Source: a virus. From it: a DNA stretch of 47,071 nt. A program made the translations under genes and the position numbers. The notes beneath the pieces are model-generated. The model worked only from the letters and a program-made list of their open reading frames with translations, made no database searches and had not been told where the DNA came from. Positions 5,631-46,524 of the stretch are shown here, piece by piece (the first letter of the stretch is position 1; every line of letters begins with the position of its first letter). The stretch is from positions 1 through 47,071 of IMG/VR virus record IMGVR_UViG_3300033153_016045; one strand, 5' to 3'.

Positions 5631-5725
5631 GAGAAACCCACGGGTGCTGAGCGAGCCAGGGAGGAAGAGAAACCCAACTCAATAGAGCGAGCCACGTGGC
5701 CGGAGAAACCCACCAAAAGAGAGCG
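5631..5725 (+). repeat. Alternating 18-bp tandem repeat, cluster 1
   Basis: GAGAAACCCA occurs at 5631, 5667 and 5703. GAGCGAGCCA occurs at 5649 and 5685, with GAGCG at 5721. The two motifs alternate every 18 bases exactly, so the full period is 36. The spacers between them are unrelated 8-mers. Read in one frame it gives a hexapeptide pattern xEKPxx/xERAxx within a 61-codon ORF (5595-5780) of doubtful reality. Confidence 0.75.
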
Positions 5726-22485: not shown

Positions 22486-22989
22486 ATGTTGAAACTGGAG
22501 TACATACCCAAGGGAATTGATGAGATTGTCGACTATTATGGCGCGGCTGGCCGGATAGTTAACGGAAAATTCAAGAAAGATCAGGGCTGGTTCGACGAAA
22601 ACGTCAAGGTCTTCCATCTTTCTTTCCCCCTCCGGCAGAGTTGGAATCAACAGGAAATCCGAGCCTTTCATGCACACAAGAAAGTAGGCGCGGTCATGGC
22701 GGATGCCCTCCAGGAGATCTACGAGTTCTACGGGCTTCGGCTGATGCGTCTGCACGGGCTTGATTTCTGGGGAGGCGTTTATAATCCCCGACTGAAACGA
22801 GGATCCCGAGAACCATCGACGCACGCCTGGGCGATAGCTATCGACCAGTGCCCGGAGCTGGGACCATACGGAGAAGCTCCCAGAACTCCTTGGATACTTG
22901 TGGAAGCTTTCGTCAAACGTGGTTTTCTTTGGGGCGGTCTTTGGGAATATCCAGATGGCCAACATTTTCAAGCGGCGGATGGTTTTTGA
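22486..22989 (+). CDS. Endolysin, M15-family D,D- or L,D-carboxypeptidase-like
   Basis: The 167-residue enzyme carries the zinc-binding pattern of VanY/M15 peptidases: PSTHAWAIAID gives H113 and D120, and DGQHFQ gives H160. It would cleave the peptide part of peptidoglycan in the periplasm. No signal peptide is seen, so export must rely on a holin. A GGGAGGGGAACT site precedes the ATG. The two neighbouring membrane proteins support the lysis assignment. Confidence 0.82.
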   Translation: MLKLEYIPKGIDEIVDYYGAAGRIVNGKFKKDQGWFDENVKVFHLSFPLRQSWNQQEIRAFHAHKKVGAVMADALQEIYEFYGLRLMRLHGLDFWGGVYNPRLKRGSREPSTHAWAIAIDQCPELGPYGEAPRTPWILVEAFVKRGFLWGGLWEYPDGQHFQAADGF

Positions 22990-22991
22990 CG

Positions 22992-23204
22992 ATGAAACGC
23001 AAATTGGGAAGAAAGTTCGCCTTTGCCATCTTCTGCGCCGTGCTTTGCATTTTTGCAGTCATTGCCTTCTGCTATTACATCAAAGAGCCAAATGCTCCGC
23101 TACTGCTGACCATGGTTGCCGCTCCATGCCTGGCGATAATTGCTGGTGTTGTCGGGGTGGAAGGCGTGAAGGACATCAAGGTTGCAAAGAACGGGGGAGG
23201 CTGA
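22992..23204 (+). CDS. Holin candidate with two membrane segments (70 aa)
   Basis: Starting at ATG 22992, the protein has a basic N-terminus (MKRKLGRK), a first membrane helix FAIFCAVLCIFAVIAFCYYI, a short turn, a second helix around LLLTMVAAPCLAIIAGVVGV, and a charged tail. Length and topology are those of class II-like holins. The stop overlaps the start of the dual-frame lysis genes. Confidence 0.65.
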   Translation: MKRKLGRKFAFAIFCAVLCIFAVIAFCYYIKEPNAPLLLTMVAAPCLAIIAGVVGVEGVKDIKVAKNGGG

Positions 23205-23740
23205 TGTGTCCAAAATCAAGTGGTATTTGGTGGCGTTCCTTATCGGGGCAATTCTCGGTGCAGGCATTGTGCTTATCACTCTGTATTGCCCTTCTTCTCG
23301 TACCATCGCCGATCTTCGGGCTGAGTCCGACCGAGCATCTCAAAAATATCGAGCGGAACTTGACCGCTATACTGGCCTACTCGCAGAAGCTAGAAACCGA
23401 GCTGGAGAACTCGCAGAGGATCTCGGGCGAGCAACAGAAGAATATCAAGCAGCTCTTGAGCGAGTTGAACAGCTTGAAGGCCAGGCTCGAGACCTCCAGG
23501 AGCTTATTGGAGAAATACAAGAATCAGGCGGGCGAGCTACTCAGTACAATCAGAGAATTAGAGGTGAGGCTGAAACAGCTCTCGAAAGCTTGCGAGAATA
23601 CCGTGCGGCCCTTGCAGCAGGCCTTGACGGTGGCGGAGGAAGAGATCCACCGGCAGAAGATTAAGACGGTGATCTACGTGATCCTTGCTGTGGCTACGGC
23701 CGGGGCTGCCGGCTATGGGATCGGGAGAATGGTGAAATAA
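23204..23740 (+). CDS. Coiled-coil membrane protein, frame A of dual-coding lysis locus (178 aa)
   Basis: The ATG at 23204 begins two bases before the GTG of the overlapping frame and shares its GGGGGAGG site (23192-23199). The product has an N-terminal hydrophobic segment (ALCLSLCIALLLVPSPIFG) that looks like a signal sequence, a long coiled coil (about 45-145) and a C-terminal membrane helix (VIYVILAVATAGAAGYGIG). Whether it is an outer-membrane-reaching spanin partner or an unrelated protein is not settled. Confidence 0.6.
   Translation: MCPKSSGIWWRSLSGQFSVQALCLSLCIALLLVPSPIFGLSPTEHLKNIERNLTAILAYSQKLETELENSQRISGEQQKNIKQLLSELNSLKARLETSRSLLEKYKNQAGELLSTIRELEVRLKQLSKACENTVRPLQQALTVAEEEIHRQKIKTVIYVILAVATAGAAGYGIGRMVK
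23206..23664 (+). CDS. i-spanin (Rz)-like coiled-coil protein, frame B of dual-coding lysis locus (152 aa)
   Basis: The GTG start at 23206 opens a frame with an N-terminal membrane helix (YLVAFLIGAILGAGIVLITL) and a long Ala/Glu/Arg-rich coiled coil, the layout of inner-membrane spanins, which fuse the two membranes after endolysin action. Its whole length is overlapped in another frame by the gene at 23204. No lipoprotein (Rz1-type) signal was seen in either frame. Both frames are open and protein-like. Confidence 0.65.
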   Translation: MSKIKWYLVAFLIGAILGAGIVLITLYCPSSRTIADLRAESDRASQKYRAELDRYTGLLAEARNRAGELAEDLGRATEEYQAALERVEQLEGQARDLQELIGEIQESGGRATQYNQRIRGEAETALESLREYRAALAAGLDGGGGRDPPAED

Positions 23741-27711: not shown

Positions 27712-27943
27712 GGTCAAGGATAGCATCAGCGAATTCAAGGGAATCGCAACATGCCGGATTGAGTATTTGACCGGCTGTGTGCAGATCCAAATAACAGCCG
27801 AAGGAACAGGTGGAAAGATTGAGGAGTGGATCGACGAACAACGTCTTGTTGTGACAAAGGCAGGTGCCTATGGTCTGCCGGAAGAGGAAGTCAAAGAAGC
27901 CCCGGCGGGTCCTCAGAATGTGCCGCCTGCTCGCCATCCGTAA
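27686..27943 (+). CDS. Conserved small phage protein (85 aa)
   Basis: The N-terminal LGDEVKDSISEFKGIATCRI with EYLTGCVQIQI is a compact beta pattern shared by many phage proteins, perhaps a KOW/SH3-like fold. The C-terminal tail (EEVKEAPAGPQNVPP) is disordered. A GGAGCGGAAAG site precedes the ATG. No biochemical role is known to me. Confidence 0.7.
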   Translation: MGKVYLGDEVKDSISEFKGIATCRIEYLTGCVQIQITAEGTGGKIEEWIDEQRLVVTKAGAYGLPEEEVKEAPAGPQNVPPARHP

Positions 27944-27987
27944 ATAGAAGATCGGGGGGACGTTTCCGACCGAAAGGAGATCCGGAT

Positions 27988-29322
27988 GTGAGTGATGACA
28001 TGATATTCACACGAGAGGAACACCGTGGATGGTCAATAAGGATCTATCCTAACAAAAAACAAAAGCAGGAAATTGATCATACAATCGAAGCTTGTCGGCA
28101 ATTTTGGAATTGCCTTGTTGGTGCCGGCAAACAATATCGATGGATATTAGCTGATCTATATCAAGATAATGGAGAACCGACAAAAGAAGAAAAGCAACAA
28201 ATACGCACAGATATGTATATTGATTCTTGCGGAAAGCGATCAGTAGAAAGATTTTGCGAGCGATATCCTGAGTTTGCGGATGTATGCAAATCAGCCTTAT
28301 ATCAGGAAAAACGGAAATATGATAATGCCATAAAACAGGTTCAGAAAGGTTTGCGGAAATGGCCTCACCCACATAAAGATCAATCTTTTGGTAGCTATCG
28401 ATTGCAAGGTAACGGATTCCGCTGGGAAGAAAAAAGAATCCATATTGGAAAGATTGCAGACTATATAAAAATGCGAGACAAGAGCATCGATTCATGGTCT
28501 GCCGAAGTTTTGTCTCAGAATAATGATGTAACCGTGAAAAGAAGTGCAACCGGCAAATATTATATAGTTGTTGCAAGAACAGTGCAGACACCAATTCCTC
28601 GGGGAGGGGAATATAAGCAGATAATTGGCCTTGATATGTCATTCATGGCAAATGGATTTGTTACTTCTGAGGGAGAAACCTATTCCTTTCCCAGACATTT
28701 TCGCAAGACCTTGGAAAGACGCAGACATCTAAATCGCAGGATATCAAAAAAACAAAAAGGTTCGAAGAACTTTCATGATTATCGAAAGAAAATTGCCAGA
28801 ATAGACGAACGAATCAGAAATCAATTGAAAGATTTTCAATTAAATATAGCTAAAAATTTGACGCAGAGTGCAGATGCGATAATAGTCGAAAAACTATCAT
28901 TATCGGCAATGCAGCAAATATTTGGAAAAAGCATTCGTGAAATTTCTTGGGGTCAATTCACTGAGATATTGAAGAGAAAGTGTAAAGAGAACAACTGTGA
29001 GTTAATAGAAGCAGATAGATTTTTCCCTTCGACACAACTTTGCAATAAATGTGGTTACCAGAATCGAGAGTTGGCCGGGAAAAAAGGACTGAGTATCCGA
29101 TCCTGGGTCTGTCCCGAGTGTGGCAAGACCCTGGACAGAGATATTAATGCAGCTCTAAACCTTGCCCAATATGGGCGAGAAAAAATAGAGATGGTTGCAC
29201 GAACCATAAGCTCACAAGAGCCGGTAGCACAAAAATGTACTGCTGAGACCGGTGTTGACGGTGAGCATCCGGAAACCCGGGCAAGGTTCGCGGAAAGCAG
29301 GCAAAATGTGCTTACTGCGTAA
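27988..29322 (+). CDS. tnpB: TnpB, RNA-guided nuclease of the IS200/IS605 family
   Basis: From GTG 27988 (AAAGGAGA eight bases upstream) the 444-residue protein is full length. The RuvC residues are all present: D216 in IIGLDMS, E301 in IIVEKLSL and D385 in LDRDINAALNL. Between the last two lies a zinc ribbon with CNKC (352-355) and CPEC (375-378). An N-terminal WED-like beta segment (GWSIRIYPNKKQK) is intact. There is no TnpA gene and no obvious left end, so it may be a stand-alone or domesticated copy. The 171 bp after its stop probably encode the 3' part of a guide RNA. Confidence 0.92.
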   Translation: MSDDMIFTREEHRGWSIRIYPNKKQKQEIDHTIEACRQFWNCLVGAGKQYRWILADLYQDNGEPTKEEKQQIRTDMYIDSCGKRSVERFCERYPEFADVCKSALYQEKRKYDNAIKQVQKGLRKWPHPHKDQSFGSYRLQGNGFRWEEKRIHIGKIADYIKMRDKSIDSWSAEVLSQNNDVTVKRSATGKYYIVVARTVQTPIPRGGEYKQIIGLDMSFMANGFVTSEGETYSFPRHFRKTLERRRHLNRRISKKQKGSKNFHDYRKKIARIDERIRNQLKDFQLNIAKNLTQSADAIIVEKLSLSAMQQIFGKSIREISWGQFTEILKRKCKENNCELIEADRFFPSTQLCNKCGYQNRELAGKKGLSIRSWVCPECGKTLDRDINAALNLAQYGREKIEMVARTISSQEPVAQKCTAETGVDGEHPETRARFAESRQNVLTA

Positions 29323-29699: not shown

Positions 29700-30839
29700 A
29701 TGGAGGAGGACAAACAGTTAATGGTAGGTAGGGAAGGGGACAAACAGTTAATGACGGTTGATCCGGAGAGCCTTATCGCCCGTGCGATAGACAAAGGGCT
29801 GCCCGTTGATAGTTTAGAGCGGCTTTTAGAGATGCGGACCCAGCTCAAGACCGAATGGGCTCGGGATGAATTCTACCGGGAACTGGCACTTTTCCAATCA
29901 AAATGTCCGATTATCATCAAAACTCGGCAAGTTTTCGATAAATCTGGCAAATTACGGTACAAATTCGCTTCATTAGACGAAATTATTGCAAAAATCAAAG
30001 CGCCTCTCAAAAAACACGGATTCAGCTACACTATCAAAACCAAGCAAGAAAACGAGTCGGTCACGGCTATTGTTGAGGCGCACCATGTTGCCGGCCACAC
30101 CGAAGTCACGGATTTTACTGTACCGATTGATCCCAGTGCTTATATGAATGCCGCTCAGAAGGTGGCAAGTGCACTCACCTACTCAAAACGTTACGCCTTC
30201 TGTAACGCTTTCGGGATCCTCACCGGCGATGAGGATGATGATGCTCAGGGCCAAGGAAATGAAAAACAATCAGAAAATAGGCCTCCTCTCCGTGCACCCC
30301 AGACAATCACTGAGATTAAAAAGGTAACTCAAGAAAAACGGGACAAAACCGAGCTGCCCAAGGAACAAAAAGAGTTTGCCGATAAGCGCCACGCAGAACT
30401 CATTGAATTACTCAAAAATCCTGGGCTTAATGGCAAAAAGGTTATTGCTTTAATAAAAGCCTCAGATATGCCCGAACACCGATATGATGTGACCTGGCTG
30501 GAGATGGCTATCACCCGAACTATTCAGGAGATAGAGAAGCAGGAGGCAATATTGGCTGTAAACGCGCAAGAAGAACTGATCCAAGGCAGCAAGAAACAAC
30601 AATGGGAGCTATCCCAGACAGTACAAACAGATCCTTACTCAGAGATAATGCTGATACTCGGCACAAAAGAGAAATCACGGGAAGGACCGATAATCGCCCT
30701 ATTTGCCGCTCAGGAAAAAGTCGAATGGAAGGAAAAAGCGGATAAGGCAAGGAAAAATCCGGAAGAAATGCTCGGCATACTGCAGGAACTTGATGTAGTT
30801 TCCGAGCAACGGCGCAACAAAATCAAGGGGGCTATATGA
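29700..30839 (+). CDS. erf: Erf-family single-strand annealing protein
   Basis: The 379-residue protein has the ERF core at about residues 55-185: YKFASLDEIIAKIKAPLKKHG followed by DPSAYMNAAQKVASALTYSK and the RYAFCNAFGI ending, quoted in parts. Erf proteins bind single-stranded DNA and anneal complementary strands during phage recombination and circularisation. The C-terminal half is charged and helical. A PD-(D/E)XK nuclease downstream is a likely partner. A nine-codon repeat (EGDKQLM, EEDKQLM) occurs at the N-terminus. Confidence 0.85.
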   Translation: MEEDKQLMVGREGDKQLMTVDPESLIARAIDKGLPVDSLERLLEMRTQLKTEWARDEFYRELALFQSKCPIIIKTRQVFDKSGKLRYKFASLDEIIAKIKAPLKKHGFSYTIKTKQENESVTAIVEAHHVAGHTEVTDFTVPIDPSAYMNAAQKVASALTYSKRYAFCNAFGILTGDEDDDAQGQGNEKQSENRPPLRAPQTITEIKKVTQEKRDKTELPKEQKEFADKRHAELIELLKNPGLNGKKVIALIKASDMPEHRYDVTWLEMAITRTIQEIEKQEAILAVNAQEELIQGSKKQQWELSQTVQTDPYSEIMLILGTKEKSREGPIIALFAAQEKVEWKEKADKARKNPEEMLGILQELDVVSEQRRNKIKGAI

Positions 30840-45673: not shown

Positions 45674-45901
45674 ATGCAAGAACAACATAATGATGGGTTA
45701 GTTAGTCCCGTGACGCCTTTCCTGAAAAAGGTTATGGAGCTGGCTCTTAACGATCCGCATGTTGAATCTGTAGAGGTGTTCAAGGAAGGATCGAAGGCTC
45801 ACGAAAAAGCAAAACAAAATTGGTCACGATTGACTAAAAATCAGAAACGCCGCATTCGGCAGAGACTAAAAAAACGTGGGTTACCGGGAGGTAAATCATG
45901 A
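45674..45901 (+). CDS. Hypothetical basic protein (75 aa)
   Basis: TGAGGAGGTAAATC precedes the ATG. The N-terminus is acidic to neutral (HNDGLVSPVTPFLKKVMELA), and the C-terminus strongly basic (KNQKRRIRQRLKKRGLPGGK), as in small nucleic-acid-binding proteins. No family is recognised. Confidence 0.65.
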   Translation: MQEQHNDGLVSPVTPFLKKVMELALNDPHVESVEVFKEGSKAHEKAKQNWSRLTKNQKRRIRQRLKKRGLPGGKS

Positions 45902-46524
45902 AACTTGAACATTGGGTTATTGTTGTTATGCTGCTGCTACTGACAGCACTGGGAGGGATGATGGTGCTCAATACCATCATCGGGCAGCAACAGGAGGAGC
46001 TCGCCGAGAAAGAGCGGGATGTGGCCGCGCTTAAGGCGCAGGTTGCCAACCTGGAGGAGCAGCTCCGCCCTAAAGCTTATTGCCCGCCGCTTGAGCAATT
46101 GTGGATTTCTTCAGGCACTGGGTATAGGGTGCCACCACTAGGTGGTCTGGGTATTGATGAGACATTGCATCGGGGAACGGATCTAGCTGCGCCAATAGGC
46201 ACACCGGTTCATGCGCTTTTGGCAGGAAGAATAGCCGAACATTGGGTTCCATCAGATGGCAGAAAATGGAAAGGACATCCGATAATGGGTGGCTATTTGG
46301 TAATTGACCATGGGAATGAGTTGCTCAGTGAATATGCACATCTCAGCGTCACATATGTCCACGAGGGCGATTGGGTGGAAATGGGTCAAATCATAGGATT
46401 GGTTGGAGATACAGGTATTTGCACTGGGCCACATCTTCATATCGCCGTTGTTGTTTCGCCTTTTAGATATTTAGAGGAAAGAAAATGCATCATAGATAAT
46501 AAGAAATGGGTGGAGGAGCGGTGA
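45898..46524 (+). CDS. Membrane-anchored M23 peptidase (208 aa)
   Basis: An N-terminal membrane helix (VIVVMLLLLTALGGMMVLNT) is followed by a short coiled coil and a complete LytM/M23 site: H91 and D95 in HRGTD, H148 in YAHLS, and H179/H181 in GPHLH. M23 enzymes cut peptidoglycan cross-links. It lies far from the lysis cassette, among early genes, so a role in cell-wall remodelling or superinfection control is as likely as lysis. Confidence 0.85.
   Translation: MKLEHWVIVVMLLLLTALGGMMVLNTIIGQQQEELAEKERDVAALKAQVANLEEQLRPKAYCPPLEQLWISSGTGYRVPPLGGLGIDETLHRGTDLAAPIGTPVHALLAGRIAEHWVPSDGRKWKGHPIMGGYLVIDHGNELLSEYAHLSVTYVHEGDWVEMGQIIGLVGDTGICTGPHLHIAVVVSPFRYLEERKCIIDNKKWVEER

Follow-up and report, generated by a model that had tools for sequence, protein, structure and literature searches.

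A co-initiated, fully overlapping pair of helical membrane proteins as a putative spanin equivalent of spirochaete phages

The locus described here raises two questions: does one stretch of phage DNA encode two long proteins, read in different frames from almost the same start, and what would two such proteins do for the phage? The locus lies in IMG/VR virus record IMGVR_UViG_3300033153_016045, and the whole stretch that was analysed (positions 1 to 47,071 of that record, 47,071 nucleotides) is referred to as the window. The two frames are called A and B. The spanin step is the last in phage lysis and breaks the outer membrane. Based on the results below, A and B are two genuine proteins with a near-identical start that probably act together as the equivalent of a two-component spanin. 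The coordinates of the features discussed are collected in Table 1.

Table 1. Features of the lysis region of the window and of the proteins encoded by frames A and B
Feature	Position	Strand	Basis or remark
Small protein with C-terminal membrane segment, 75 aa	22233..22460	+	ORF; hydrophobic C-terminus; opens presumed cassette
Endolysin, Peptidase_M15_4 (L-Ala-D-Glu / D-Ala-D-Ala peptidase type)	22486..22989	+	PF13539, E = 5.4e-12
Putative holin, 70 aa, two membrane segments	22992..23204	+	Sequence
Shine-Dalgarno-like site GGGGGAGG common to ATG 23204 and GTG 23206	23193..23200	+	Sequence
Frame A, 178 aa	23204..23740	+	Signal peptide without lipobox, long helix, C-terminal membrane helix
Frame B, 152 aa	23206..23664	+	N-terminal membrane helix and long helix; Rz-like profile
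A, predicted periplasmic helix	residues 42-155
A, predicted C-terminal membrane helix	residues ~156-174, nt 23669-23725
B, predicted N-terminal membrane helix	residues ~5-26, nt 23218-23283
B, long helix	residues 34-142

The start region reads GGGGGAGG CTGATGTG, in which the stop codon of the holin-like gene (TGA, 23202-23204), the ATG of frame A (23204-23206) and the GTG of frame B (23206-23208) share bases as TGATGTG. The preliminary description, made from the window sequence, had proposed that one ribosome-binding site serves both starts and that two frames stay open for more than 450 bases. Both proposals are borne out: a single Shine-Dalgarno-like site precedes the two starts, a feature that recurs in most relatives, and B is open from its GTG to the stop ending at 23664, so that A and B overlap by 459 nt. 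The interval 23204-23740 that had been given for the two proteins applies to A, while B is 76 nt shorter. The lysis-type setting was also correctly recognized, as the M15 endolysin and the holin-like gene lie directly upstream of the pair. The endolysin also matches the phrog_17001 endolysin (E = 5.4e-16). The holin-like gene has a sub-threshold Pfam match only (PF07332, E = 0.006), but its position is conserved in two relatives (L002 and L004). For the small protein at the front of the presumed cassette, family searches gave no match above noise. Elsewhere in the window, the portal, protease and major head genes belong to ordinary tailed-phage families, a phrog_506-type transposase (27826-29322, E = 8.5e-74) lies near an Erf-like ssDNA annealing protein (29700-30839), and a second peptidoglycan-hydrolase-like gene (45898-46524), far from the lysis cassette, matches the phrog_6700 endolysin (E = 8.6e-22) as well as metallo-endopeptidases and tail lysins.

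Direct searches of viral contigs and of 50,697 phage records with the window A or B protein gave no match. The window endolysin used as query reached two viral contigs of one lineage at 78% (L002 and L003) and a third at 45% (L004), and all three carry the same double frame right after the holin-like gene, although the encoded proteins are only approximately 17-34% identical to A and B of the window. The holin-like gene of L003 (approximately 5678-5690) has a two-base insertion relative to the near-identical L002 (approximately 790-800), which is either a broken copy or an assembly error. Because the integrase of L002 matched a Spirochaetaceae MAG, Spirochaetota genomes were searched with A and B profiles. 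These searches produced 50 tabulated loci from spirochaete phages and genomes, a few of which are near-duplicates of others. Both frames are also present in L148 and in three contig-end fragments (L171, L203 and L215). Since the two profiles have loci in common, they do not corroborate each other fully independently. Three further candidates (L117, L205 and L213) were rejected as tandem-repeat artefacts. A first genome scan with endolysins and a search of phages with a Treponema-like A protein gave no match, and the best-matching genomic relative of the endolysin (L006, in G363) has no pair adjoining it. One treponemal genome (G277 C1) carries four near-identical copies of the pair at separate places (L074, L075, L110 and L111), apparently belonging to multiple related prophages. 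From these relatives, we infer that the host of the window phage is a spirochaete.

Every complete locus carries both frames, and openness of the second frame can be compared with chance. When synonymous codons of the window genes were permuted, B was open in 0.5% of permutations with A fixed and A was open in 4.3% with B fixed. Across loci, the test was applied to a region defined by A alone (approximately codon 11 to 66% of A). Frame B contains 0 stops in this region, compared to 96.4 expected from synonymous permutation of A (minimum 72 in 500 runs), while the third frame contains 316 compared to 316.9 expected; an earlier test on 40 loci had given 0 stops in B compared to 83.6 expected. 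Free occurrence of stop codons in the other frame, which the preliminary description had named as one of two observations that would count against double coding, is therefore not seen in B. Substitutions follow the same pattern. Counting substitutions in 16 pairs by a simplified OLGenie-type method, with bootstrapping over pairs, gave omega values of 0.48 [0.41-0.54] for A, 0.59 [0.54-0.65] for B and 1.04 [0.90-1.17] for the third frame; as multiple hits are uncorrected and some pairs are only 66-75% identical, these are rough figures, although the third frame provides an internal contrast. The constraint in both frames that had been suggested as a check is thus found in the relatives. Both frames are real and under selection, stop-free and with purifying selection in the homologues. 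The opposing explanation, that only one frame is a gene and the other is open by chance owing to GA-rich coiled-coil and T-rich hydrophobic codons, draws on some high-GC members (such as L067 and L167) in which fixing one frame would often leave the other open by chance, but we give it virtually no weight given the stop and substitution counts and the fact that B keeps its own start, an anchor of its own (lipobox or membrane helix) and a C-terminal motif that is conserved.

The starts of the two frames are similarly constrained. They lie at most 28 nt apart in every complete locus, in the same register, and subtracting the B start from the A start gives 1 modulo 3 in 50 of 50 tabulated loci. 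Three offsets, +4 (19 loci), -2 (13 loci, the ATGTG type of the window) and +7 (five loci), together cover 37 of the 50; start codons were inferred throughout, with no good start pair in L210 and uncertain starts in L066, L067 and L156. Loci first found through B alone also carried A, with the exception of two tandem-repeat artefacts, and no unpaired A or B was present among strong matches. The separate homologues in non-overlapping contexts that had been proposed as a further check were not found. Programmed frameshifting, by which A and B would be joined into one product, is suggested by frames that run one base apart along their whole length, but it is very improbable because nearly all loci have a separate start codon for A and for B close to a shared Shine-Dalgarno site and the start offset varies by steps of three while the frame relation stays fixed. 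Chance openness, a single real frame and a frameshift fusion are all rejected on the stop and substitution tests.

The earlier proposal that both proteins combine a membrane segment with a long coiled coil is supported by their predicted structures. AF2 models, built on a shallow three-sequence alignment, place a helix at residues 7-32 and one long helix at residues 42-177 of A (mean pLDDT 83.9), and helices at residues 3-26 and 34-142 of B (mean pLDDT 83.7). The core helices have a heptad-like periodicity of 3.5-3.6 residues that is far above shuffles (z = 6.5 for A and 7.4 for B). Members of the A family have an N-terminal hydrophobic segment that ends in sites resembling those of signal peptidase I (such as AQA-LE, AHG-QD and SFG-EE, identified by eye), then a hydrophilic helix and, at the C-terminus, a hydrophobic one. 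A lipobox is absent from every A member seen. Members of the B family have an N-terminal anchor followed by a helix that matches A's in length and carries the conserved C-terminal motif. The anchor occurs in two forms. Treponema-like phages and a few others have a clear lipobox (LSGC, LAAC, LSSC or LASC), whereas B of the window and of most other loci has a membrane helix that shows a GxxxG-like pattern. The claim that neither protein has a lipobox therefore stands for the window pair but not for the Treponema-like relatives, in which B is a lipoprotein. The two forms cluster on both the A tree and the B tree (2 changes compared to approximately 10 in shuffles), on trees with weak backbone support and with the window on a long branch. 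In three chromosomal loci (L152-L154), LVGC, IVGC or LAGC occurs within the membrane helix of B, and these motifs may represent a bridge between the two anchor forms. B of the window matches the Rz-like spanin phrog_6197 (E = 4.2e-4), and B members match several Rz-like spanin PHROGs weakly; such matches may reflect a composition of membrane helix plus coil. A Foldseek search with A found nothing, and the PDB and NCBIfam matches are to generic coiled coils.

The main argument for a role in lysis is position. In phages, the pair directly follows the holin and/or the endolysin, and the endolysin belongs to at least five unrelated types: M15 (the window and L073), CHAP (L074), M23 (L113), YkuD (L115) and C39 (L168). 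Recognized holins (phrog_1129/1299) adjoin the pair in L070 and L112. That different lytic enzymes share the pair at one position argues for the spanin-equivalent reading.

If this reading is correct, the pair could function as follows. With one ribosome-binding site feeding both starts, A and B would be made in near-equal amounts. A would be exported by Sec, lose its signal peptide and remain a type I protein (N-out, C-in) of the inner membrane, while B would be anchored by its N-terminus, in the outer membrane if it is a lipoprotein and in the inner membrane if it has a membrane helix. The helices of A and B, approximately 16 nm long, would zip together in the periplasm and, after cleavage of the peptidoglycan by the endolysin, cause the membranes to fuse or rupture. 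These topologies are predictions from sequence. The parts of the Treponema-like version are consistent with a bridge, with the C-terminus of A in the inner membrane and the lipid of B in the outer one. The version with a membrane helix in B, which is that of the window, seems to have two inner-membrane anchors, so the C-terminal helix of A would have to reach the outer membrane, the pair would act solely from the inner membrane, or a further, unseen partner would take part.

Specific definitions must be used to decide if the window pair can be called a spanin. B has the N-terminal type II helix (its orientation predicted from sequence) and periplasmic domain of an i-spanin, and A does not fit that description. 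The lipobox lipoprotein of an o-spanin is absent from the window pair and is represented only by B of the Treponema-like relatives; no separate lipobox ORF was present within 2.5 kb of any of 40 loci scanned, window included. A is not a unimolecular spanin, which combines an N-terminal lipobox with a C-terminal transmembrane domain, as it has the latter without the former. Lacking a lipobox, the window pair has no conventional outer-membrane anchor, and because a two-component spanin, as defined by the standard criteria, must include an outer-membrane lipoprotein, we class the pair as spanin-like rather than as a proven member.

The family is not restricted to lysis cassettes. Approximately 20 loci form a chromosomal group without holin, endolysin or other lysis neighbours, which indicates that the family also acts outside phage lysis. 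RNase HII (rnhB) is directly upstream and DUF3276 downstream in four of these, from four genomes (L067, L068, L155 and L161), a placement kept across divergent spirochaete genomes without phage genes nearby, while L156 and L163, from two genomes, adjoin Era and L212 adjoins translation factor IF3 (infC) with rplT (by eye). In seven chromosomal pairs, omega is 0.46 for A and 0.56 for B, and phage-type pairs behave alike, though the phage-type group includes L207/L212 and L208/L209, later found to be chromosomal or unclear. Both the gene neighbourhoods and the purifying selection would fit a primarily bacterial envelope pair, such as a tether or spacer between the inner and outer membranes, with the lysis version of spirochaete phages derived from it. 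This origin appears unlikely to us because occurrence is patchy (of the order's 394 genomes, 29 have A, counting prophage copies) and because most chromosomal copies group together, apart from the phage set, which is more diverse; this grouping, whose backbone support is weak, also fits domestication of a phage pair.

A somewhat stronger, if still unlikely, alternative is that both proteins remain in the inner membrane as a coiled-coil complex in cis that is not a spanin, and serves for example in holin regulation, endolysin control or superinfection exclusion. Both anchors do look like inner-membrane helices in the window and most relatives, and the chromosomal copies have no lysis neighbours. 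This explanation is opposed by the Treponema-like phages, in which B is a lipoprotein at the same cassette position, and by the persistence of the pair beside lysis genes while the type of endolysin changes. We therefore retain the spanin-equivalent reading for the phage pairs. For the family as a whole we suggest, more tentatively, co-initiated and fully overlapping envelope genes that encode two interacting helices, a family that would include a mirror-image spanin (a type I inner-membrane subunit with a partner whose anchor swaps between lipid and membrane helix) and a chromosomal branch kept by spirochaetes for a cellular function.

Kongari et al. (2018, PMC6139136) were unable to assign spanins for 13% of Gram-negative phages and allowed, without an example, for an i-spanin that is a type I inner-membrane protein; the A/B family is a concrete candidate for it. 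Embedded spanins have been predicted by the usual criteria in Leptospira (PMC8705779), while lysis genes go unmentioned in a survey of treponemal prophages (PMC11144348). In the open-access literature, where absence is weak evidence, we found neither a co-started pair with full overlap nor a type I subunit described, nor any spirochaete spanin outside Leptospira, and among other spanin topologies nothing was recognizably like the A/B pair by title and abstract. The pair may thus offer a first candidate for an outer-membrane lysis system in phages of spirochaetes other than Leptospira. Long overlapping genes in bacterial chromosomes are still disputed, and approximately 50 homologous pairs allow long same-strand double coding to be measured in both phages and bacterial chromosomes. 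If our reading is true, the chromosomal branch would be among the clearest long same-strand double-coding pairs maintained in bacterial chromosomes. As one of the two frames tends to be lost in standard gene calling, similar pairs have probably been missed elsewhere.

Three known systems resemble the pair in part. TIGR04211 SH3_and_anchor (YgiM-like) envelope proteins consist of a signal peptide, a coil and a C-terminal membrane anchor, and A has the same order. Six of 13 A proteins match this profile (best E = 3.1e-8), in matches that are coil-driven and may fall short of the curated cut-off. In contrast to TIGR04211 proteins, which are not known as a double-coded pair, A shows no SH3 domain and is too short for an added one. 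Like the unimolecular spanin gp11 of phage T1, A has an exported N-terminus and a C-terminal membrane helix, but it lacks a lipobox, is helical rather than beta-rich and is always paired with B. The closest parallel is with lambda Rz/Rz1 and other embedded spanins, which also have two out-of-frame overlapping genes ending the lysis cassette; B, like Rz, is an N-terminally anchored coiled coil and weakly matches Rz-like profiles. In approximately 70% of known embedded pairs, the o-spanin starts 0.4-0.5 into the i-spanin gene and ends at 0.9-1 (PMC6139136), whereas A and B start together (0.00) and B ends at approximately 0.67-1.07 of A. The arrangement thus differs from Rz/Rz1, as had been proposed: the overlap is full and co-initiated, both window proteins are long helices and neither is a lipoprotein, A has a type I C-terminal anchor, and the anchor of its partner B is a lipobox in Treponema-like relatives and a membrane helix in the window.
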